From assembly GCA_035651955.1 (NCBI GenBank), contig DASRES010000016.1, positions 1 through 64,000 on the forward strand: DNA of 64,000 nucleotides. Direction: 5' to 3'. The position numbers and the translations under genes were made by a program. The stretch is from Acidimicrobiia bacterium. GTDB lineage: Bacteria; Actinomycetota; Acidimicrobiia; IMCC26256; JAMXLJ01. Each line of letters opens with the position of its first letter. Position 1 is the stretch's first letter. The notes beneath the pieces are model-generated. The model made no database searches, was not told the origin of the DNA, and saw nothing but the letters and a program-made list of their open reading frames with translations. Positions 28,930-40,332 of the stretch are shown here, one piece after another.

Positions 28930-29670
28930 GTGCCCGACAGCAGGCCCATGACCGCGGACGAGTTCACGGCGTCCGTCGCCGCGGTGACGAGCGCGTTCGG
29001 CGATCCCACCCGGCGGGACATCTACCTCTTCGTCCGGGACGCGACCGCGTCACCTGCCGGCGGTGTCACCGCGAGCGAGGTCGCCGACCGGTTCGAGCTG
29101 CACCCCAACGTCGCCCGCCACCACCTCGAGAAGCTGACGGGCGGCGGGTACCTCACGGTCGCCGCCGGTCGCGCGGCCGGCACCGCGGGGCGGCCGTCGA
29201 AGCGATATCGCACGAGCGAGGTCGACGCCACGCTCGCGTTCCCGCCTCGTCGCGACGACCTGCTCGGTCAGCTCCTCGCGCGCGCGCTCGAGATGCTCGG
29301 CCCCGACCGGGCCGCGGAGATGGCCGACGAGGTCGGGTTCGAGTACGGCCTGGCACTCGCGGAGCGCATGGGGACGGGCGCCGACGCGGCGAACCGCGCC
29401 CACCGCTCGCTCAGCACCGCGATGGTCGCCGTCGCCGACGCGCTCACCGCGCACGGCTTCGCCGCCCACACCGAGGCGCGCGGCCGCTCGCTCGCGATCG
29501 TCGCCGAGTGCTGCCCGTTCGGTGAAGCCGCGCAGCGGTACCCGCACGTCGTCTGCGCGGTCGACCGCGGGATGATCCGCGGGATGCTCGCCGGCCTTTC
29601 GCGCGACGTCGAGCCGCGCGTCGAGGCGTCGCGCCCCGACGGCGACGCGCACTGCGTCACGCGGGTTTGA
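28930..29670 (+). CDS. SufR-like helix-turn-helix regulator with C-terminal cysteines
   Basis: The 246-residue protein has an ArsR-like winged helix near residues 45-75 (TASEVADRFELHPNVARHHLEKLTGGGYL) and GRPSKRYR in the wing. The C-terminal domain contains ECCPFGEA (C194, C195), VVCAVDRGMIRGML (C209) and C242. SufR proteins use such cysteines to hold a cluster and repress Fe-S assembly genes. Its stop overlaps the start of a cysteine desulfurase gene (TTGA), which strongly supports an iron-sulfur role. In other Actinobacteria SufR heads the suf operon; suf genes are absent here. Confidence 0.85.
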   Translation: MPDSRPMTADEFTASVAAVTSAFGDPTRRDIYLFVRDATASPAGGVTASEVADRFELHPNVARHHLEKLTGGGYLTVAAGRAAGTAGRPSKRYRTSEVDATLAFPPRRDDLLGQLLARALEMLGPDRAAEMADEVGFEYGLALAERMGTGADAANRAHRSLSTAMVAVADALTAHGFAAHTEARGRSLAIVAECCPFGEAAQRYPHVVCAVDRGMIRGMLAGLSRDVEPRVEASRPDGDAHCVTRV

Positions 29671-30806
29671 CGCGCGCATACCTCGACCACGCGTCGACGT
29701 CGCCGCTCCGTCCCGTCGCGTTCGACGCGATGGTCCCGTACCTGCGCGAGCACCACGGCGACCCGGCGCGCCTGCACGCGGAGGGCCGGGCGACGCGCGT
29801 CGCGGTCGAGGACGCGCGCGACCGCATCGCCGCGTTCGTCGGTGCGCGACCGCGCGAGGTCGTGTTCACGTCCGGCGGGACCGAGGCCGTCAACATGGCG
29901 ATCTACGGCGCGATCGCGCGCGCGTCGGATCCGGCACACGTCGTGACCACCGCGGTCGAGCACTCGTCGGTGCTCGACGCGTGCCGGCGGAGCGGCGCCG
30001 ACGTGACCGTCGTCGGTGTCGACGGCACCGGACACTACGACCCGGCCGCCGTGCTCGACGCCGTCCGCGACGACACCGCGCTCGTCAGCGTGCAGCTCGC
30101 CAACCACGAGGTCGGGACCCTGCAGGACGCAGCGGCCGTCTGCGCGGGTACCGACGTCCTCGTCCACGTCGACGCGTGCGCGGCAGTCGGTCACGTGCCG
30201 CTCGACTTCCGCTCGCTCGGTGCCGATCTGTGCTCGATCACCGCGCACAAGCTCGGAGGCCCGGCCGGGACGGGCGCGCTGCTCGTACGGCGCGGACTGC
30301 GCATCCCGCCGTTCGTCGTCGGCGGCGCGCAGGAACGCGCACGGCGCGGCGGTCTCGAGAACGTCCCCGCCATCGTCGGGTTCGGCGCCGCGGCCGCGGA
30401 GCTCGTCGAGGGCGACCGGCTCGCGACGGAGGCCGCGACCGCACGCCGCCAGGTGGATCGCATCGTCAGCGGCGCGTGCACCGCGGTCACGGGCGTCCGC
30501 GTGCTCGGCGACCGCGACGCGGCCCTCCCCCATCTCGTGTGCCTCGAGGTCGACGGCGTCGAGGCCGAGCCGATCCTCCTCGCGCTGGACCAGCGCGGCG
30601 TCGCCGTCCACTCGGGGTCCGCGTGCTCGAGCGAGACGTTCGAGCCGTCGCCCGTCCTGCAGGCAATGGGCCTCGACGGCGACCACGCGCTGCGGGTGAG
30701 CGTCGGGTGGACCACGACCGATGCCGACGTCGACCTGTTCCTCGTCGCGTTCGCGGACGTGACCGGTCGGCTCCGGAGGCTCCGGACGGGAAGCTCGACG
30801 CAGTAG
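29667..30806 (+). CDS. Cysteine desulfurase, IscS/NifS-like
   Basis: The 379-residue PLP enzyme has the family landmarks: YLDHASTSPLRPVAF at the N-terminus, FTSGGTEAVNMAI, the PLP-contacting His in TTAVEHSSVL, the PLP Lys195 in SITAHKLGGP and the sulfur-accepting Cys320 in HSGSACSSETFEPSPVL. It releases sulfur from cysteine for Fe-S clusters or thio-modification. The TTG start at 29667 overlaps the regulator stop, so translation is coupled. A DUF169 gene follows by 10 bp and an Nfu gene lies next on the other strand. Confidence 0.93.
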   Translation: MTRAYLDHASTSPLRPVAFDAMVPYLREHHGDPARLHAEGRATRVAVEDARDRIAAFVGARPREVVFTSGGTEAVNMAIYGAIARASDPAHVVTTAVEHSSVLDACRRSGADVTVVGVDGTGHYDPAAVLDAVRDDTALVSVQLANHEVGTLQDAAAVCAGTDVLVHVDACAAVGHVPLDFRSLGADLCSITAHKLGGPAGTGALLVRRGLRIPPFVVGGAQERARRGGLENVPAIVGFGAAAAELVEGDRLATEAATARRQVDRIVSGACTAVTGVRVLGDRDAALPHLVCLEVDGVEAEPILLALDQRGVAVHSGSACSSETFEPSPVLQAMGLDGDHALRVSVGWTTTDADVDLFLVAFADVTGRLRRLRTGSSTQ

Positions 30807-30816
30807 GTTCGCCGGC

Positions 30817-31539
30817 ATGGCGAACTCCTCCTGGGCCGAGCTCTCGGACGCGCTGCAGTCGAACCTGCACCTGACCGCGGCGCCGATGGCGATCACGTTC
30901 GCGAGCGAGCCACCGCCAGACGTCGCGCCGTTCGATGCGCCGATGCCGTCACCGGCACCCGACGGCCGGACCGGGCGCGTCCCGGCGGGGTGCGTCTTCT
31001 GGATGCACGGCTCGGACCGTACGTTCAGCACCGTGGCGCAGGACCACGCGAACTGCAGCGTCGGCAGCATGACGCACGGGTTCAAGACGCTCGACGAGGT
31101 GGCGGGGAACGGCGACGTCGCCGCGCTGCTCGAGTCGGGCTGGGTGACGATGGACGTCGTGCCGCAGATCCCGGTCGTGCACGAGAAGCCGGGCGCGGTC
31201 GTCTACGGACCGCTCGCGGCGACACGCGTCGACCCGGACGTCGTGTTCATCCGCCTGAACGCGAAGCAGCTGATGGTCTTGTCGGACGCCGTGCCGGGGC
31301 TCCGTGTCGAGGGCAAGCCGCAGTGCCACATCGTCGCCATCGCCAAGGAGCAGGGTGAGATCGCGGCGAGCGTCGGCTGCATGCTGAGCCGCGTCCGCAC
31401 GGGGATGCCGAGCACGGAGATGACGTGCGCGATCCCCGCGTCGAAGCTCGCCGAGGTCGTCGCGTCGATCGAACGGAACGCGGTCGCGGACGCGGCGGTC
31501 GCGCAGTACGCGTCCCAGGACGCGCAGCGCTTCTCGTAG
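30817..31539 (+). CDS. DUF169-family protein
   Basis: The 240-residue protein begins with a helix and LTAAPMAITFASEPP and contains five conserved-looking Cys contexts: GCVFWMHG, HANCSVGSMTHG, PQCHIVAIAKEQG, VGCMLSRVRTGM and MTCAIP. This matches the DUF169 pattern; members occur in methanogens and many bacteria without a known function, often near redox or metal genes. Its place right after cysteine desulfurase and before Nfu suggests a role with clusters or sulfur. Its TAG stop directly abuts the Nfu stop on the other strand (TAGCTA). Confidence 0.72.
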   Translation: MANSSWAELSDALQSNLHLTAAPMAITFASEPPPDVAPFDAPMPSPAPDGRTGRVPAGCVFWMHGSDRTFSTVAQDHANCSVGSMTHGFKTLDEVAGNGDVAALLESGWVTMDVVPQIPVVHEKPGAVVYGPLAATRVDPDVVFIRLNAKQLMVLSDAVPGLRVEGKPQCHIVAIAKEQGEIAASVGCMLSRVRTGMPSTEMTCAIPASKLAEVVASIERNAVADAAVAQYASQDAQRFS

Positions 31540-32172
31540 CTACTTCTTCGCCGACTCGAAGTAGGGGTTCTCGCCGCTCGCGTGATCGGTCACGTCGACC
31601 ACGCGCGTGATCTCGGGGACGGCGTCGAGGATCGCGACCTCGATCCCCTGGCTGAGGGTGACGGCCGCGAGGCCGCAGCCCTGGCAACCACCGCTGAGGC
31701 GAAGGTACGCGACCGCGTCCTCGACGGCGACGAGATCGGCGCGGCCGCCATGCGCGGCGATCGCCGGGTTGATCTGCTGGTCGATCACCTGGAGGACGCG
31801 CTGCGCGACCTCGCCGCTCAGGTCGCCCGCCGGGCGGGCACCCATCGGGGGGCTCGCGGGCGGCCGGTTCGGGTTCTGGAGGACCATGCCTCCGCCCTGG
31901 AGGTCGAGTGTCGAGCCGCGCACCTTGTCGACGCTCTCGGAGGGGATCACGACCGAGAGGTCGTCGTGGCGCTGGACGGCATCGTCGGGGCCGGCTTCGT
32001 CGGCCCGCTGGAAGTACATGTCGTAGGTGTACGTGTTCCCCGACACGCCGCTGACCTCGAGCCACAGCGCGAGCGTGTCGGGCTCGGGCTCCGCGGCCCG
32101 CACCTCGAGGACCTTGTCGCGCGCCCGGTCCGTCAACGTGAGCAGGGGCTGGACGGTGCCGGTTTCGGTCAT
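31540..32172 (-). CDS. nfuA: Nfu-type iron-sulfur scaffold/carrier (NfuA-like)
   Basis: The 210-residue protein has an N-terminal HesB-like degenerate A-type domain (residues 5-100) without the cluster cysteines, a Pro-rich linker and the C-terminal NifU domain with GGCQGCGLAAVTLSQGIE, where Cys163 and Cys166 bind a 4Fe-4S cluster between subunits. This is the NfuA layout. It transfers clusters to targets such as aconitase, encoded 3 kb away. The ATG at 32172 is used because the open frame upstream is antisense to the ATP-grasp gene. The gene is divergent from that gene with 17 bp between starts. Confidence 0.9.
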   Translation of the reverse strand: MTETGTVQPLLTLTDRARDKVLEVRAAEPEPDTLALWLEVSGVSGNTYTYDMYFQRADEAGPDDAVQRHDDLSVVIPSESVDKVRGSTLDLQGGGMVLQNPNRPPASPPMGARPAGDLSGEVAQRVLQVIDQQINPAIAAHGGRADLVAVEDAVAYLRLSGGCQGCGLAAVTLSQGIEVAILDAVPEITRVVDVTDHASGENPYFESAKK

Positions 32173-32189: not shown

Positions 32190-33395
32190 GTGCCTCGCGC
32201 GCTCCTCCTGCTGCCGACGTCGACGTACCGGGCCCGGGACTTCGTCGCCGCGGCGCGCCGGCTCGGCCTCGACGTCGTGATCGGCTCCGAGGAGCCCCAG
32301 GTCCTGGCGGACGTGTCGCCGGGCCAGGCGGCTGTCGTCCCGATGTCGGACGTCGATGCCGCGGTGCACGCGATCGGCGCCCTCGATCGGCAGAGCGCGC
32401 TCGACGCCGTCCTCGCGGTCGACGACCAGGGTGTCGTCGTGGCGGCGACCGCGGCCGAGAAGCTCGGGCTGCCGCACAACCCGCCGGACGCGGCTGCCGC
32501 GACGCGCGACAAGGCCGAGATGCGGCTGCGGTTGTCTCGTGGCGAGGTTCCACAGCCGGAGCACCGGGTGGTCGACGACGCCGGGAGTGCCGTCGACGCG
32601 GCCCGCGACATCGGGGTTCCCGTAGTCGTGAAGCCGGTCGCGCTGTCGGCGAGCCGCGGGGTCATCCGCGTCGACGACGTCGACGCGGTGCGCGCGGTTG
32701 CCGACCGTGTCGCGTCGATCCAGGGTGGATGGCCGCTGCTCGTCGAGCGCTACGTGCCGGGCGCGGAGGTCGCGCTCGAAGGCCTGCTGCACGACGGCGA
32801 TCTCCAGGTGCTCGCGCTCTTCGACAAGCCCGATCCGCTCGTCGGGCCGTACTTCGAGGAGACGATGTTCGTGACGCCGTCGCGTCACCCCGACGTGACC
32901 CAGCGCGAGATCGCACGCGTCACGCAGGCGGCCGCGTCGGCGATCGGGTTGCGCACCGGCCCGGTGCACGCGGAGCTGCGCATCCCGTCGCCCGGCGTCG
33001 CCGTCGTGCTCGAGGTCGCCGCCCGCTCGATCGGCGGGTTGTGCTCACGCGCGCTGGTGTTCGGCATCGGCGTGTCGTTGGAGGAGCTGATCCTGCGGCA
33101 GGCGACGGGCCGCGCGCTCGGCTCCCTGCAGCGCGCGCACGCGGCGTCCGGGGTCGTCATGCTGCCGATCCCGCGCGCCGGGACGCTGGCAGGCGTGCAC
33201 GGCGTCGACGCCGTGCGCGCGATGCCGGGCGTCGACGGCGTCGAGATCACGATCGCTCCCGGACGGCGCGTCGTCCCGTTGCCGGACGGCGACCGCTATC
33301 TCGGGTTCGTGTTCGCGCACGGCACGAGCCCCGAGGCCGTGGAGTCGACGTTGCGCCAGGCGGTCGACGCGCTCGACGTCGAGATCGACGCGTAG
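32190..33395 (+). CDS. ATP-grasp ligase-like enzyme of unknown substrate
   Basis: The 401-residue protein begins with a Rossmann-like pre-ATP-grasp domain (MPRALLLLPTSTYRARDF). The ATP-grasp fold follows: RDKAEMRLRLSRGEVPQPEH, GVPVVVKPVALSASRGVIRV with the ATP-contacting Lys, LLVERYVPGAEVALEGLL, and metal-site residues in HAELRIPSPGVAVVLEVAARSIGG. The C-terminal 90 residues look like the LAL_C2-type tail of carboxylate-amine ligases. It is probably an acid-amine ligase acting on an unknown acid. The radical SAM gene follows 11 bp later, so the two should act on the same product. Confidence 0.85.
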   Translation: MPRALLLLPTSTYRARDFVAAARRLGLDVVIGSEEPQVLADVSPGQAAVVPMSDVDAAVHAIGALDRQSALDAVLAVDDQGVVVAATAAEKLGLPHNPPDAAAATRDKAEMRLRLSRGEVPQPEHRVVDDAGSAVDAARDIGVPVVVKPVALSASRGVIRVDDVDAVRAVADRVASIQGGWPLLVERYVPGAEVALEGLLHDGDLQVLALFDKPDPLVGPYFEETMFVTPSRHPDVTQREIARVTQAAASAIGLRTGPVHAELRIPSPGVAVVLEVAARSIGGLCSRALVFGIGVSLEELILRQATGRALGSLQRAHAASGVVMLPIPRAGTLAGVHGVDAVRAMPGVDGVEITIAPGRRVVPLPDGDRYLGFVFAHGTSPEAVESTLRQAVDALDVEIDA

Positions 33396-33406
33396 CCTGG
33401 GCGTCG

Positions 33407-34729
33407 ATGCGCGTCCTCCTGGTCTCGGCCTACGAGCTCGGTCACCCACCGCTGCACGTCGCTGGTCCGGCCGGCGCGCTGCGTGCGCGAGGACACGACG
33501 TGCGCGTCGTCGATCTCGCGCTCGACGCGTGGGACGTGGGCGTGCTCGACGGCGTCGAACGGGTCCTGGTCGCGGTGCCGATGCACACCGCCGCGCGCAT
33601 GGCGCGCGAGATCATCCCGTCCATCGCGCAGCCGACGTGCTGCTACGGGCTGTACGCGGCCGCGTGTGCCGACGTGGCGGACGCCGTCGTCGCCGGGGAG
33701 TACGCGCCCGCGCTCGTGCGGTGGGTGGAGACGGGCGTCGCGGGTGACGCCGTGCAGCTGACGCGGGCTCGGCGCAGCGCGGATCCTGCCTTTGACGCGC
33801 TCCCGCCGTTGGAGCGCTACGCCCGGCTCGTGATCGGAGGCGAGGAGCGGCTCGTCGGCTACGTCGAGACGTCCCGCGGGTGCGCACACCGCTGCCGGCA
33901 CTGTCCCGTGCCCGTCGTCTACGACGGGCGCATCCGCATCGTCTCGGAGGACGCGGTGCTGCGCGACGTCGACCGCGTCGTCGACCTCGGGGCCCGCCAC
34001 GTCACCTTCGCCGATCCGGACTTCTTCAACGGCGTGCACCACTCGCTGCGGGTCGTGCGCGCGATGCACCGTCGGCATCCCGAGCTCACGTTCGACTGCA
34101 CGGTGAAGGTCGAGCACGTCCTGCGCCACGCCGACGTCTGGGGCGAGCTCGCGGACTCCGGGTGCCTGTTCGTCGTGTCCGCGTTCGAGAGCACCGACGA
34201 CCGCACGCTCGCACGGCTCGCGAAGGGACACACCGTCGCCGATGAGGTCCGAGCCGTCGCCCTCCTGCGCGCGCACGGCATCGAGGTTCGGCCGTCGTTC
34301 CTGCCCTTCACGCCGTGGACGACGCGCGCACAGCTGCGCGATCTCGTGGAGTTCGTCGCCGATCACGACCTGGTCGAGAGCGTCGACCCGGTGCAGTACG
34401 CGATCCGGCTGCTGCTGCCGCCCGGATCGCTGCTCCTCGACGACCCCGAGGTCGCGGCCGTGGTCGACGGCTACGACGCCGACCGGCTGTCGTACACGTG
34501 GCGGTCGTGTGACCCGGCGATCGACGCGCTCCATTGCGAGCTGTCCGCGATCGTCGAGCGTGCTGCGGCCGGCGGCGAGCCCTTGACCCAGACGTACGCA
34601 CATGTGCGCGAGGCGGTCGGCGCGCCGCCCCGTCCCGTGACGCCGTCCGCGACGCCCCGCCCGCACCTCACTGAGTCCTGGTTCTGCTGTGCGGAACCGA
34701 CCGAGCAGCAGCTCGGCGCGCTGCGCTGA
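33407..34729 (+). CDS. Radical SAM enzyme with C-terminal CCAEP tail and B12-binding-like N-domain
   Basis: The 440-residue protein starts at the ATG at 33407. Residues 1-110 look like a cobalamin-binding-type Rossmann domain (MRVLLVSAYELGHPPLH.., HDVRVVDLALDAWD) without a clear DxHxxG. SRGCAHRCRHCP holds the radical SAM cysteines C159, C163 and C166. The C-terminus carries Cys427-Cys428 in WFCCAEPTEQQ, 13 residues before the end. I recall a radical SAM family defined by a CUAEP or CCAEP tail, in which some members have selenocysteine at the second position; here both codons are Cys (TGC TGT). Reaction unknown. Confidence 0.85.
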   Translation: MRVLLVSAYELGHPPLHVAGPAGALRARGHDVRVVDLALDAWDVGVLDGVERVLVAVPMHTAARMAREIIPSIAQPTCCYGLYAAACADVADAVVAGEYAPALVRWVETGVAGDAVQLTRARRSADPAFDALPPLERYARLVIGGEERLVGYVETSRGCAHRCRHCPVPVVYDGRIRIVSEDAVLRDVDRVVDLGARHVTFADPDFFNGVHHSLRVVRAMHRRHPELTFDCTVKVEHVLRHADVWGELADSGCLFVVSAFESTDDRTLARLAKGHTVADEVRAVALLRAHGIEVRPSFLPFTPWTTRAQLRDLVEFVADHDLVESVDPVQYAIRLLLPPGSLLLDDPEVAAVVDGYDADRLSYTWRSCDPAIDALHCELSAIVERAAAGGEPLTQTYAHVREAVGAPPRPVTPSATPRPHLTESWFCCAEPTEQQLGALR

Positions 34730-34879: not shown

Positions 34880-35142
34880 ATGCCGACCCGTCTCTCGCTC
34901 CGGCTCGCGCCGGAGCTGCACCGCGCCATCCGAGCCAAGGCCGACGCGGCGGGCGTGTCGATCAACTCGTGGATCGTGCACGTCCTCGCGGCAGCTGCCG
35001 GCGAGCAGTTCTTCCGCACGCCCGAGGACGGCGGCACACGCGCACGATCGCGGAGGCGATCGCCGTCTCCGACGACGACGGCGTCGCGTGGTACGAACGG
35101 CGTGTCAGGTGCGAGCGGCCTGCTGCTGCGCGAGCAGGTTGA
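34880..35142 (+). pseudogene. Ribbon-helix-helix (HicB/Arc-like) DNA-binding protein, apparently frameshifted
   Basis: From the ATG at 34880 the frame encodes MPTRLSLRLAPELHRAIR, then AKADAAGVSINSWIVHVLAAA, a clear beta strand and two helices of the MetJ/Arc fold as in HicB-type antitoxins. After about 50 residues the frame runs into Arg/Ser-rich sequence antisense to aconitase and would not stop until 35449. In another frame the sequence continues sensibly (TIAEAIAVSDDDGVAWYERRV) to a TGA at 35140-35142. I read this as one gene broken by a frameshift near 35040. No toxin gene is adjacent. Confidence 0.5.
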
Positions 35143-37357
35143 GCGCGGAACCGGCGCGGAACCAGGCGATCTGCTCCTCCGACATCGTGTGACGCGTCGG
35201 GACGGAGTCCGTCGTGCCGTCGGCGTGGTGGAGCACGAGCGTGACCGCGGAGCCGGGCGCCAGCGCCGTCAGGCCCGTCACGTCGACGACGTCGTCCGCG
35301 CGCACCTTGTCGTAGTCGGCCGGGTCCGCGAACGTCAGCGGCAGCACGCCCTGCTTCTTGAGGTTCGCCTCGTGGATGCGCGCGAACGAGCGGGCCACGA
35401 TCGCACGCCCGCCGGTCGCGCGCGGCTCCATCGCCGCGTGCTCGCGTGACGAGCCCTCGCCGTAGTTCTCGTCACCGACCGCGATCCACTGGATGCCGGC
35501 GTCCTTGAAGTCGCGTGCGAGCTCCGGCAACGGCTTCTCGGTCGGCCACGCGTTGTCGACGCCGATGAAGAGGTTGCCCGAGATGTTGGTCAGGTGGCCG
35601 CGGTAGCGGAGCCACGGACCCGCGGGCGAGATGTGGTCGGTCGTGCACTTGCCGACCGCCTTCATCAGGACGCGCAAGCCGGTCAGGTCCTTGCCGTCCC
35701 ACGCGGGGAACGGCGTGAGCAGCTCCAGGCGCTCGGAGTCGCGCGCCACTGCCACCGTCACGCTCGACGGGTCGTCCGCCGGCGCCACGAACCCGGACCT
35801 GCCGGCGTCGTAGCCGCGCGACGGCAGGTCGTCGGCGACCGGCGGCTCGAGCTTCAGCTGCGTGCCGTCCTCCGCGGTGATCGGCTCGTGCACGAAGTCG
35901 AGGTCGAGGCGGCCACTCAACGCCATGGCGACCACCGTCTCGGGCGATCCGATGAACGCGAGCGTGTCCGCGTTGCCGTCGTTGCGCCGCGGGAAGTTGC
36001 GGTTGAACGACGTGACGATCGCGTTGCGCTGGCCCGGCTGGATGTCGTCGCGCTGCCACTGGCCGATGCAGGGGCCGCACGCGTTCGCGAGGACGGTCGC
36101 GCCGATCGCCTCCAGGTCGGCGAGCAGCCCGTCGCGCTCGATCGTTGCCCGGACCTGCTCGGAGCCGGGCGTGACGAGCAACGGCGACCGCACGCGCAGC
36201 CCGCGCGCCGCCGCCTGCCGTGCGACGTTCGCGGCGCGACCGATGTCCTCGTAGGAGGAGTTGGTGCACGACCCGACGAGCGCGGACGACACCTCCGTGG
36301 GATAGCCCTCGCGCGCGACCTCCGCGGGCAGCGCGGAGATCGGACGGTCGAGGTCGGGCGTGTGCGGGCCGACAAGGTGCGGCTCGAGCGGGTCGAGATC
36401 GATCTCGATCACGCGGTCGTAGAAGCGCGACGGGTCGGTGTCGACCTCGGGATCGCTGCGCAGGAAGTCCGCGCACCGGTCGGCCGCGTCCGCGATCTCC
36501 TCGCGCCGCGTCGCCTTCAGGTAACGCGCGCTGCGCTCGTCGTAGGGGAACAGCGAGCACGTCGCGCCGATCTCCGCGCCCATGTTGCAGATCGTCGCCC
36601 GGCCCGTCGCCGAGATCGACGACACACCGGGCCCGAAGTACTCGACGATCGCGCCCGTGCCACCCTTCACGGTGAGGATCCCGGCGACGGCGAGGATGAC
36701 GTCCTTCGCGGAGGTCCAGCCGGACAGCGTGCCCGTGAGCCGCACCCCGATCAGCTTCGGGACGCGCGTGTTGAACGGCCACCCCGCCATGACGTCGACC
36801 GCATCCGCGCCACCGACGCCGATCGCCACCATCCCGAGCCCGCCGGCGTTCGGCGTGTGGCTGTCGGTTCCGATCATCATTCCGCCCGGGAACGCGTACT
36901 GCTCGAGCACGACCTGGTGGATGATCCCCGACCCCGGCTTCCAGAACCCGATCCCGTACTTCGCCGACACGCTGCGCAGGAACTCGTAGACCTCGGCGTT
37001 CACGTCCTGCGCGACCCGCAGGTCGGCGTCCGCACCCACGTGCGCCTGGATCAGGTGGTCGCAGTGCACCGTCGTCGGGACGGCGACGCGCGGCAAGCCC
37101 GCGAGCATGAACTGCAACAGCGCCATCTGCGCGGTCGCGTCCTGCATGGCGACTCGGTCGGGCCGGTAGTCCGCGTAGTCGACGCCACGCGCGAGCCCGA
37201 CGGTCGTGGCGTCGTCCGCGTGCGCGGCGAGGATCTTCTCGGCGAACGTCATCGGACGGCCGAGTCGTGCGCGCGTCGTGGCGACGCGCTCGGGGAAGCG
37301 GGCGTAGACGTCCTCGACGAGGGACAGTGGTGTGGTCGGACCCACGGGCTCGGTCAT
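35105..37357 (-). CDS. acn: Aconitate hydratase, mitochondrial-type
   Basis: The 750-residue enzyme interconverts citrate and isocitrate. Cluster ligands are Cys364 in VGSCTNSSYEDIG and Cys427 and Cys430 in ACGPCIGQW. IGTDSHTPNAGGLGM and NYGEGSSREHAAMEPR provide further active-site residues. Length and order (swivel domain last) fit the mitochondrial aconitase type rather than the AcnA/IRP type common in Actinobacteria. The ATG at 37357 overlaps the stop of a GntR regulator gene by 4 bp (ATGA), so regulator and enzyme are one operon. Its 3' end overlaps the broken RHH gene. Confidence 0.95.
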   Translation of the reverse strand: MTEPVGPTTPLSLVEDVYARFPERVATTRARLGRPMTFAEKILAAHADDATTVGLARGVDYADYRPDRVAMQDATAQMALLQFMLAGLPRVAVPTTVHCDHLIQAHVGADADLRVAQDVNAEVYEFLRSVSAKYGIGFWKPGSGIIHQVVLEQYAFPGGMMIGTDSHTPNAGGLGMVAIGVGGADAVDVMAGWPFNTRVPKLIGVRLTGTLSGWTSAKDVILAVAGILTVKGGTGAIVEYFGPGVSSISATGRATICNMGAEIGATCSLFPYDERSARYLKATRREEIADAADRCADFLRSDPEVDTDPSRFYDRVIEIDLDPLEPHLVGPHTPDLDRPISALPAEVAREGYPTEVSSALVGSCTNSSYEDIGRAANVARQAAARGLRVRSPLLVTPGSEQVRATIERDGLLADLEAIGATVLANACGPCIGQWQRDDIQPGQRNAIVTSFNRNFPRRNDGNADTLAFIGSPETVVAMALSGRLDLDFVHEPITAEDGTQLKLEPPVADDLPSRGYDAGRSGFVAPADDPSSVTVAVARDSERLELLTPFPAWDGKDLTGLRVLMKAVGKCTTDHISPAGPWLRYRGHLTNISGNLFIGVDNAWPTEKPLPELARDFKDAGIQWIAVGDENYGEGSSREHAAMEPRATGGRAIVARSFARIHEANLKKQGVLPLTFADPADYDKVRADDVVDVTGLTALAPGSAVTLVLHHADGTTDSVPTRHTMSEEQIAWFRAGSALNLLAQQQAART

Positions 37358-38074: not shown

Positions 38075-38103
38075 ATGGTACTTGTCTAGACTTCTCCCGT
38101 CAA
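38075..38103 (-). promoter_or_regulatory. Promoter of the GntR-aconitase operon (leaderless)
   Basis: On the minus strand TTGACG (38103-38098) and TACCAT (38080-38075) are 17 bp apart, close to the sigma-70 consensus. Only seven bases separate the -10 from the GTG start at 38067, so the transcript likely starts at the start codon. The -35 overlaps the last codons of the upstream Rrf2 gene. Confidence 0.6.
38080..38095. promoter_or_regulatory. DasR/HutC-like operator in the GntR promoter
   Basis: ACTTGTCTAGACTTCT contains the perfect palindrome GTCTAGAC and matches 13 of 16 positions of the remembered DasR site ACTGGTCTAGACCACT. It fills the spacer between -35 and -10, an ideal place for repression. 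ACAAGT also recurs 11 bp away, so extended binding is possible. Binding is inferred from subfamily similarity. Confidence 0.6.
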
Positions 38104-38558
38104 CGGGGCTGCCAGTTGGCCGGGTCGGACACCGCTGCGCGGACCACCTCGGGCAGCTCGCCCGCCGCCACGTCGGCCAGCGTGACCACGTCGAGCACGG
38201 AGCGGAGACTCGCCCGCACCGCGATCCACACGTCGACGAGCGACGACGCGGCGCCCTCGTACGTCAGCGACTCGGGCCGCACGCCCCGGACGGCCGCGAG
38301 CGGGCCCTCGACCGCCCGGAGGACCTCGGCGACCGAGATCTCCGACGCCGGCCGGGCCAGCATCGAGCCGCCCTCGGCCCCCCGCTGCGTCGCCACGAGG
38401 CCGGCCCGGCGCAGGTCACGCAGGATGTTCTCGAGGAACTCCCGGGGGATCCGCTGGCTGTGCGCGATCCGCTCCGCCTTCACGGGTCGACCCGGGGGCG
38501 CGGCCGCGAGCTCGGCGGCCGCCCGCACCGCGTAGTCCGCCTTCGCCGAGATCCGCAC
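38100..38558 (-). CDS. Rrf2-family transcriptional regulator without cysteines
   Basis: The 152-residue protein has the Rrf2 pattern: MRISAKADYAVRAAAELA, then IAHSQRIPREFLENILRDLRRAGLVATQRGAEGGSMLARP, where the second helix and wing are diagnostic, and ISVAEVLRAVEGPLA. The protein has no Cys at all, so it cannot hold a cluster as IscR or NsrR do. It is closer in that respect to CymR-like or metabolite-sensing members. It is divergent from a TauE/SafE permease and a decayed ABC importer, which suggests sulfur-compound control. Confidence 0.9.
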   Translation of the reverse strand: MRISAKADYAVRAAAELAAAPPGRPVKAERIAHSQRIPREFLENILRDLRRAGLVATQRGAEGGSMLARPASEISVAEVLRAVEGPLAAVRGVRPESLTYEGAASSLVDVWIAVRASLRSVLDVVTLADVAAGELPEVVRAAVSDPANWQPR

Positions 38559-38632: not shown

Positions 38633-39682
38633 GTGCACCTCGACCCCTGGGTCGCGCTCGCCGGGCTCGGCGTCGGCTTCGTCGTCGGGCTGACGGGCAT
38701 GGGCGGCGGCGCGCTCATGACGCCCGTGCTCGTGCTGCTCTTCGGCATCCAGCCGCTCGCCGCGGTGTCGAGCGACCTCGTGGCGGCCGTCGTCATGAAG
38801 CCGGTCGGGGGTGGCGTGCACCTGCGTCGCGGCACCGTGCGACTCGACCTCGTGAAGTGGCTCGCGCTCGGGTCCGTACCCTCCGCCTTCGCCGGGGTCC
38901 TCGTCCTGCGCGCGATCGGCGCCGCGCGCGTGCAGGACCGCCTGCAGCTCCTACTGGGGCTCGTGCTCGTCGTCGCGGCGGCGGCCATGGTGGCCCGTTG
39001 GATCCTCCAGCCACGTCGTGCGACGCGGGCCGAGCCCGTTCGCGTCCGCGCGATACCCACGGTGCTCGTCGGCGTCGTCGGCGGGCTCGTGGTCGGCATG
39101 ACGTCGGTCGGCAGTGGGTCGCTGATGATCGTCGCGCTGATGATGCTGTATCCCGCGATGTCGACCGGTGAGCTGGTGGGAACCGACCTCGTGCAGGCGA
39201 TCCCGCTCGTGCTGTCCGCCGCGCTCGGACACGTGCTGTTCGGCCATCTCGAGCTCGGCCTGACGGGCGCGCTCCTGCTCGGGAGCATCCCCGGCGTGTA
39301 CCTCGGCGCGCGCGTCTCGGCGCGCGCACCCGACGCGATCGTCCGGCCCGCGCTGGCGGTCGTGCTCCTGCTCTCGGCGCTGAAGCTGCTCGACGCGCCC
39401 ATCGCCGTGTTGCTCGCGGTCCTCGTGCTCGCGGTGTGCGCGGGCGCGACGGCCGCGGCCGTCCGTCTCCCCCGTCGCGAACCCGCGCTCCAACCGATTC
39501 CGGAGGTCAGGGTGTCCCTCCGTCTACTCGCGCGCGCTCGTACCGATCGTGTTCGTCGCGCTCGCGGCGTGCACGAGCGCGAGCAGCTCCACCGCGAAGG
39601 TGACGCTGCGTCTCGGCTACTTCCCGAACATCACGCACGCGACCGCGTTGCTCGGCGTCGAGCGCGGGATCTTCGCCCGTGA
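38633..39682 (+). CDS. TauE/SafE-family permease with suspect C-terminal extension
   Basis: Residues 1-285 form a typical TauE/SafE protein with the two signatures GVGFVVGLTGMGGGALMTPVL and VGGLVVGMTSVGSGSLMIVAL and about eight helices. The GTG at 38633 follows GGAGG at five bases. From about 39500 the frame continues for some 57 Arg-rich residues that coincide with the start of the broken substrate-binding protein gene. That tail is probably not native, the original stop having been lost along with the neighbouring damage. Likely cargo is a sulfur-containing anion, given the Rrf2 and sulfonate-type ABC neighbours. Confidence 0.85.
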   Translation: MHLDPWVALAGLGVGFVVGLTGMGGGALMTPVLVLLFGIQPLAAVSSDLVAAVVMKPVGGGVHLRRGTVRLDLVKWLALGSVPSAFAGVLVLRAIGAARVQDRLQLLLGLVLVVAAAAMVARWILQPRRATRAEPVRVRAIPTVLVGVVGGLVVGMTSVGSGSLMIVALMMLYPAMSTGELVGTDLVQAIPLVLSAALGHVLFGHLELGLTGALLLGSIPGVYLGARVSARAPDAIVRPALAVVLLLSALKLLDAPIAVLLAVLVLAVCAGATAAAVRLPRREPALQPIPEVRVSLRLLARARTDRVRRARGVHEREQLHREGDAASRLLPEHHARDRVARRRARDLRP

Positions 39683-40188
39683 CCTCGGCTCGAACGTCAC
39701 GCTGATGACCGCGACCTTCAACGCCGGTCCCGAGGAGTCACCGCGCTCCTCTCCGGCGCGCTCGACGCCGGCTCCGTCGGCCCGAACCCCGCGATCAACG
39801 CGTGGCAGAAGTCGCACGGCACCGCGATCAGGATCGTCGCCGGGTCGATCACCAGCGCGCGCCAGTTGAAGGGCAAGAAGCTCGCGTCACCGCAGCTCGG
39901 CAACACGCAGGACGTCGTCCTGCGCACGTGGCTGAAGCGGCAGGGTCTCAGCACGACGACGACCGGCGGGCGCGACGTGTCGGTCGTGCCGCAGGACAAC
40001 GCGACGACGTTGCAGGCGTTCCAGGCCGGCGCGGTCGACGTCGCGTGGGGGCGGCCCGAGCCGTGGGCGACGCGGCTCGTCAAGGACGGCGGCGGGCACG
40101 TGCTCGTCGACGAGGCGTCGCTGTGGCCGGGCGGCCGCTACGTCACGACGTTGCACGAGGTCGCCGATCGGGCCGCGCTGCTGACGGG
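39512..40188 (+). pseudogene. Decayed periplasmic substrate-binding protein of a nitrate/sulfonate/taurine-type ABC importer
   Basis: GGAGG precedes a GTG at 39512, but the lipoprotein signal (ALVPIVFVALAACTSASSS, lipobox LAAC) is in another frame. LRLGYFPNITHATALLGVERGIFA continues to about 39735, then the sequence switches frame again: LLSGALDAGSVGPNPAIN, KSHGTAIRIVAGSITSARQL, KKLASPQLGNTQDVVLRTWL and so on to RYVTTLHEVADRAALL. These are the ordered blocks of an SsuA/NMT1-like protein. At least two frameshifts and a missing C-terminus make it a pseudogene, unless the assembly is faulty here. Confidence 0.75.
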
Positions 40189-40332
40189 TGGCACGACCTG
40201 CTGCACGGCACGCTCCTCGACGCGACGGCCGTCACGCTGCGACGCGGCGTCGTCGACTTCCTCGTCGTGTCCGGCCTGAAGCAGGGCTGGGCGTTCGCGT
40301 GGCGGAGCCTGGTCGACGGGGCGACGAGCTAG
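40189..40332 (+). pseudogene. Remnant of ABC importer permease
   Basis: Immediately after the binding-protein remnant, a third frame reads WHDLLHGTLLDATAVTLRRG and then SGLKQGWAFAWRSLVDGATS before a TAG. The first part resembles the start of an SsuC/TauC-type permease and the second the segment near its end; the membrane core in between is missing. A large internal deletion fits. Its stop shares CTAG with the convergent cyclophilin gene. Confidence 0.55.

Follow-up and report, generated by a model that had tools for sequence, protein, structure and literature searches.

We identified, in a 64,000-nucleotide stretch of an Acidimicrobiia bacterium (Actinomycetota; assembly GCA_035651955.1, contig DASRES010000016.1, positions 1 to 64,000; hereafter the window), a gene set that looks like an uncharacterised small-molecule pathway with chemistry related to that of the arsenic antibiotic arsinothricin. 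The set occurs in three phyla or more and centres on an ATP-grasp ligase and a radical S-adenosylmethionine (SAM) enzyme (rSAM) whose fixed tail carries a Cys-Cys or Cys-selenocysteine pair, in the window as the unusual Cys-Cys-Ala-Glu-Pro. The best explanation of the window is that it carries the cysteine (Cys) form of a conserved pathway consisting of an Nfu-type iron-sulfur (Fe-S) cluster carrier, the ATP-grasp ligase and the rSAM, joined in many genomes by DUF169 or YggX. A preliminary description, made from the sequence alone, had noted the two enzyme genes lying 11 bp apart (33396-33406) and had proposed a linked multi-enzyme system. Adjacency and co-occurrence strongly supported this proposal, and we regard a functional link between the genes as almost certain. 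That description included neither the relation to the arsinothricin enzyme ArsL nor the nesting of the rSAM within a wider ATP-grasp/Nfu pair. New here are these two relationships, the evidence for selenocysteine (Sec), the count of tails, the co-occurrence and the reshuffled gene order.

The window rSAM matched the NCBIfam model NF040546, 'CUAEP/CCAEP-tail radical SAM (seleno)protein', over almost the entire profile (491.1 bits, 3e-147, positions 1-467 of 468), which is the family that the preliminary description had mentioned as one where the second Cys can be Sec. This score narrowly missed the 500-bit cut-off, which was passed by a sister protein from the same genus (genome G420, 501 bits), and the window rSAM was therefore placed in the family by its tail and phylogeny rather than by its score. 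In a tree from a short search, with support given by the Shimodaira-Hasegawa-like approximate likelihood ratio test (SH-aLRT) only, it was sister to the G420 protein (L120_Sec, SH-aLRT 100), deep within 139 members. The name of the family states no function, and a literature search found no mention of CUAEP, CCAEP, RCCLKC or NF040546.

Among the 139 distinct homologues, the only invariant Cys residues were those of the CxxxCxxC motif (C159, C163 and C166) and the tail pair (C427 and C428). H161 and H165 within the motif, as well as E423, W425 and P431 in the tail, were also invariant, with A429 and E430 nearly as fixed. As this set had been selected by the presence of the tail, tail invariance was tested separately using a hidden Markov model (HMM) without the tail. 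The tail was found in all 76 homologues from whole-family HMM searches that reached the C-terminus and were re-detected in this way (two further loci, cut off by contig ends, fall outside this count), although the initial family-search model included the tail and could be escaped by a highly diverged tail-less branch. Usually seven or more residues follow the CCAEP/CUAEP motif, so the pair is not at the very end of the protein. Two signs against a linked system had been named beforehand, a tail free to vary and homologues with no ATP-grasp gene beside them; the tail proved invariant and, where the ATP-grasp gene was not adjacent, its orthologue was usually found elsewhere in the genome.

The tail pair of the window rSAM is encoded by TGC (C427, 34685-34687) and TGT (C428, 34688-34690), as originally read. 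In many homologues, however, the second position is TGA, as had been suspected, and a covarying selenocysteine insertion sequence (SECIS) hairpin follows 12 nt past the UGA, with a 7-bp stem and a 5-nt loop holding an invariant G. Across 25 UGA sequences 93.7% of the stem pairs were formed, with 33 double-change cells; none of 500 shuffles scored as high and slid controls reached at most 59%. In comparison, pairing at the same position in 25 Cys sequences (40.6%) was no better than shuffled. In a larger set, the mean number of stem pairs (out of 7) was 6.0 in 49 Sec forms versus 2.7 in 90 Cys forms. SelB scored above its cut-off in 17/19 Sec-tail genomes, compared to 10/21 Cys-tail genomes, and tRNA-Sec was detected in 17/19 Sec-tail genomes, agreeing with SelB. 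Judged from these sequence signals, the UGA encodes genuine Sec in the relatives. The tree held 17 changes between Sec and Cys, 12 of which were forced by well supported branches. The genome of the window possesses both SelB and tRNA-Sec, yet its rSAM uses Cys, whilst the rSAM of its same-genus sister (G420; L120/L031) uses UGA. The window rSAM as a selenoprotein was rejected, given its TGT codon and a SECIS position that is decayed or absent (Table 1). In Thermomicrobium roseum (L226:11365-11400, NC_011961.1, TRD_RS12835), the deposited rSAM ends in ESWFC and a SECIS-like stem follows; the deposited gene halts at the Sec UGA, read as a stop, and the database protein is therefore too short.

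Conservation of the gene pair was assessed in 47 non-redundant loci whose rSAM gene was flanked by 4 kb or more in each direction; most genomes were metagenome assemblies and surrounding genes were called with a simple home-made caller. Within 4 kb of the rSAM, the ATP-grasp gene occurred in 35/47 loci, most often less than 100 bp away, Nfu in 33/47 and DUF169 in 15/47. The order of the genes was reshuffled across phyla, with Nfu, DUF169 or YggX recurring. In Actinomycetota and some Chloroflexota, a reverse-strand Nfu gene precedes forward-strand ATP-grasp and rSAM genes, whilst the order is rSAM-DUF169-ATP-grasp in Nitrospira (Nitrospirota), Nfu-rSAM with ATP-grasp on the opposite strand in Dehalococcoidia (Chloroflexota) and Nfu-rSAM in Dormibacterota. 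Ktedonobacteria have YggX immediately upstream of the rSAM. Where no ATP-grasp gene was adjacent, 22 of the 25 rSAM genomes held one orthologue elsewhere (437-600 bits; next paralogue 192). Co-occurrence was examined in genome samples not chosen for either gene. The ATP-grasp subfamily was present in 23/24 rSAM genomes versus 10/372 others in the phylum of the window (Fisher test, 2e-28) and in 72/75 versus 22/226 in Chloroflexota (Fisher test, 2e-45), giving 95/99 versus 32/598 for the two phyla pooled. These Fisher values ignore shared ancestry and serve as a guide only; the reshuffled gene orders are the better argument for linkage.

The ATP-grasp ligase contains ATPgrasp_N, ATP-grasp_4 (PF13535, 87 bits) and LAL_C2 (PF18603, 75 bits) domains, the latter two above cut-off. 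The best solved relative of its subfamily profile was the L-amino acid ligase BL00235 (PDB 3vot, E 2e-68). Ligases of this type, as well as BacD, share the ATP-grasp and LAL_C2 domains, but the window ligase belongs to a separate subfamily, one associated with Nfu and the rSAM. This association with Nfu extends beyond the rSAM system. Amongst 20 ATP-grasp loci without the rSAM (L236-L255), an Nfu gene was near in 18 and YggX stood beside the ligase gene in one more, whilst Nfu of the window type was wider still (33/203 genomes). The distributions therefore nest: rSAM genomes fall almost wholly within ATP-grasp genomes, nearly all of which have Nfu, and ATP-grasp/Nfu is the core pair. Most simply, the ligase would yield a product of use in itself, which the rSAM then elaborates, though another enzyme could substitute for the rSAM in ATP-grasp genomes lacking it.

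An AlphaFold2 model of the rSAM (predicted local distance difference test (pLDDT) 95; tail near 90) had AprD4, MgmA, OxsB, TsrM and MiaB as its best structural matches, and also resembled RimO. The solved structures of AprD4, MgmA, OxsB and TsrM share with it a Rossmann-like N-terminal domain and a radical SAM barrel (Z 24-28), but identity was 20% or less and the AprD4 and MgmA alignments ended at model residues 407 and 389, respectively, short of the tail. By these matches the N-terminal half is B12-domain-like in fold, and to this extent the cobalamin-domain-like N-terminus described previously held, whereas a Pfam scan of the window rSAM matched no B12-binding model. The fold resembles B12-dependent radical SAM enzymes and AprD4 alike, and AprD4 is not known to use B12; given this and the Pfam result, the rSAM may bind cobalamin but need not.

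ArsL (NF040542) was the second-best NCBIfam model for the window rSAM (242.2 bits; next model 57), below its own cut-off of 450 bits. The two proteins are homologous over ~86% of the rSAM length (27-32% identity) and have the CxxxCxxC motif in common, and three ArsL proteins shared 37 of the 58 near-invariant rSAM positions. Both also have tandem Cys near the C-terminus, but ArsL ends in RCCLKC whereas the window rSAM has FCCAEP and then further residues. MAFFT aligned the Cys pair of RCCLKC with that of CCAEP, which is plausible, as both are C-terminal, but no proof. The reaction proposed for ArsL, itself a prediction, is transfer of the 3-amino-3-carboxypropyl group from SAM onto arsenite (PMC8552651). 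The genomic surroundings differ, with arsenic resistance neighbours at ArsL loci, plasmid-borne in the cases read, and Nfu, DUF169 and YggX instead at CUAEP loci. An ATP-grasp gene accompanied the arsenic genes at 6/7 of the ArsL loci read (Priestia, Alicyclobacillus, Klebsiella, Pantoea). Neither ATP-grasp nor CobW-like GTPase genes belong to the minimal arsQML pathway. The RCCLKC-type clusters on plasmids of these four genera (L228-L233) carried ATP-grasp, often together with a CobW-like GTPase, and the product of such clusters with ATP-grasp may be arsinothricin in peptide form.

Combining these data, we propose a mechanism in which an Nfu-loaded rSAM, an amide-forming ligase and a tail thiol or selenol yield a product for iron or Fe-S metabolism, to which, as a whole, we assign a probability of about 0.4. 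The ATP-grasp enzyme would most likely form an amide between an amino acid and a second small molecule, whilst Nfu would supply the [4Fe-4S] cluster of the rSAM. The rSAM would then make a carbon-heteroatom bond on the ligase product or its amino-acid unit, perhaps through ArsL-type cleavage of SAM. The Cys-Cys or Cys-Sec pair would fold onto the active site as a thiol or selenol site, where it could hold, activate or re-reduce a thiophilic partner (sulfur, metal or metalloid). The product would probably be a small molecule serving iron or Fe-S metabolism. What the data show directly is that the genes are linked and co-occur, that the tail is invariant, that Sec is used with a SECIS and that the rSAM is homologous to ArsL; the order of the steps, the chemistry, the role of the tail and the nature of the product are inferred. 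More tentatively, this may be an undescribed pathway of Actinomycetota, Chloroflexota, Nitrospirota and Dormibacterota, in which an Nfu-linked ligase builds the backbone of an iron- or Fe-S-handling molecule and an rSAM with a catalytic tail adds a carbon-heteroatom bond, ArsL-like but arsenic-free.

Several observations weigh against this proposal. Near 207 CUAEP loci, arsM, arsC and arsH were not found, bar one weak partial ArsM-like match (L101), and the only other ars-type gene was an ArsB-like permease ~4 kb upstream in Ktedonobacteria; arsenic is thus not an obvious partner, and an arsenic pathway at CUAEP loci was rejected for want of these genes. In addition, the ArsL-type and CUAEP-type ATP-grasps were each closer to BL00235 than to one another. 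The two pairings may therefore have separate origins, leaving a shared order of reactions unproven, though a pairing that arose twice would itself suggest that rSAM chemistry of this kind goes hand in hand with an amino-acid ligase. Finally, ATP-grasp occurs without the rSAM but the reverse hardly at all, and this nested distribution disfavours a ligase that acts only on the rSAM product.

The surroundings of the two enzymes in the window are presented in Table 1. The Nfu gene is divergent from the ATP-grasp gene, with 17 bp separating their starts, and encodes an NfuA-like N-terminus and a NifU domain with a conserved CxxC. The DUF169 protein has four Cys that were invariant in our alignment (C59, C80, C170 and C188); its confident model (pLDDT 92.7) matched no PDB structure in Foldseek (E 0.001), and none was found by profile. 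Nfu, a cysteine desulfurase and DUF169 had been placed within 4 kb of sequence and read as one set. All three are present, but span ~5 kb, and only Nfu and DUF169 turn up again in several phyla. The NifS-type desulfurase was a neighbour in close relatives only, as was the SufR-like regulator, and both were rejected as core members.

Table 1 Coordinates of the ATP-grasp/rSAM cassette and neighbouring features in the window.
Feature	Position	Strand	Details
ATP-grasp ligase gene	32190..33395	+	Open reading frame (ORF), start GTG, stop TAG
CUAEP/CCAEP-tail rSAM gene, Cys form	33407..34729	+	ORF, start ATG, stop TGA, 440 aa
CxxxCxxC motif (C159/C163/C166), for [4Fe-4S] cluster	33881..33904	+	Invariant in 139 distinct rSAM homologues
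Tail, E423-x-W-F-C427-C428-A-E-P431	34673..34699	+	rSAM C-terminus
SECIS-stem position of UGA relatives	34703..34721	+	Only 4/7 pairs possible in the window
Nfu-type Fe-S cluster carrier	31540..32172	-	TIGR03341 95 bits, under the model's cut-off; PF01106 above cut-off
DUF169 protein	30817..31539	+	PF02596
NifS/IscS-type cysteine desulfurase	29667..30806	+	TIGR03402 336 bits, below cut-off of 531
SufR-like winged-helix regulator	28930..29670	+	PF12840; TIGR02702 26 bits, far short of the model's cut-off

The iron-sulfur theme reaches past the cassette, with an aconitase gene (35105-37252, reverse strand), which many relatives likewise have near the cassette, and a gene judged by eye to encode an Rrf2-family-like regulator (38100-38558, reverse strand). 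Further along, a gene for an ATP-binding cassette (ABC) transporter substrate-binding protein, of nitrate/sulfonate type by eye, is split across two or three reading frames (39549-40332) and adjoins a TSUP-like permease (38633-39682); a pseudogene or a misassembly may explain the split. Elsewhere, a formyltransferase-like gene is divergent from the rSAM in the Ktedonobacteria that have the ArsB-like permease (L182-L194). In one Chloroflexota group (L199, L200, L207), lipB, lipA and the E1 and E2 genes of pyruvate dehydrogenase (PDH) lie directly downstream of the cassette, and in an actinobacterial clade lacking an adjacent ATP-grasp gene (L061-L092) a PDH E1 gene is divergent from the rSAM. 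These neighbours possibly reflect a tie to lipoyl-dependent enzymes. The pairing of Nfu with the rSAM recalls the partnership of NfuA with lipoyl synthase, where Nfu likewise stands beside a radical SAM enzyme; however, the genomes here have a separate, ordinary LipA and the rSAM is without a LipA-like extra Cys motif.

Other explanations centre on the tail. It could be a redox relay, which the preliminary description had also considered, next to a sulfur or metal site. A disulfide or selenylsulfide between Cys427 and Cys/Sec428 would then shuttle electrons into or out of the active site during catalysis, and the bound substrate would need no thiophilic atom. Thioredoxin reductases, with their C-terminal Gly-Cys-Sec-Gly, are the model. 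The vicinal Cys-Sec pair near the C-terminus, the interchange of Cys and Sec, seen in many redox selenoproteins, and the want of any further invariant Cys for an extra cluster are all consistent with such a relay. Nevertheless, we consider it somewhat unlikely, as the motif exceeds a plain redox pair, with flanking residues fixed almost as firmly, the pair is not terminal, and ArsL retains it yet continues with LKC. Insertion of sulfur or selenium by the rSAM is a little less probable. Here, the tail Cys/Sec would ligate an auxiliary, sacrificial Fe-S cluster or carry a persulfide, and Nfu would rebuild the cluster after each turnover, as it does for lipoyl synthase. The constant Nfu linkage, a fold resembling not only B12 enzymes but also MiaB and RimO, both methylthiotransferases, and the lip and PDH neighbours all point this way, but only two invariant Cys lie outside CxxxCxxC, fewer than the three used by LipA or MiaB. 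An alternative lipoyl synthase, suggested by the Nfu, lip and PDH neighbours, was rejected, as ordinary LipA (TIGR00510) was present in 18/18 genomes tested, so that the rSAM does not replace it.

Two readings of the locus as a whole appear weaker. The product could be an arsenic or other metalloid amino acid, put into a peptide by the ATP-grasp enzyme, so that environmental bacteria would possess a genuine counterpart, by descent, of the arsinothricin pathway. In its favour, no relative is nearer than ArsL, whose clusters often include an ATP-grasp gene, but this reading is improbable given that CUAEP loci have no ars genes nearby beyond the distant permease in one group, and that steady Nfu adjacency, even in genomes without the rSAM, points to a housekeeping role. 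Alternatively, the genes may be neighbours only since all serve Fe-S proteins, with no shared small-molecule pathway. Mrp, NifS, the SufR-like regulator and aconitase near the cassette in close relatives fit this idea, which was already disfavoured and seems very improbable, as co-occurrence of the rSAM with ATP-grasp persists when the genes are unlinked and the ATP-grasp ligase is, by sequence, not an Fe-S protein.

Its ties to an ATP-grasp subfamily and to Nfu mean that a named family without a function is no longer an orphan and becomes a testable pathway, with members in cultured organisms (Thermogemmatispora, Thermomicrobium roseum and Acidithrix). The natural swaps between Cys and Sec, even within one genus, represent a ready experiment on the benefit of selenium to a radical SAM enzyme. 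If the proposed ArsL-like chemistry is true, non-canonical cleavage of SAM would reach beyond an antibiotic pathway to the core of iron-sulfur metabolism.

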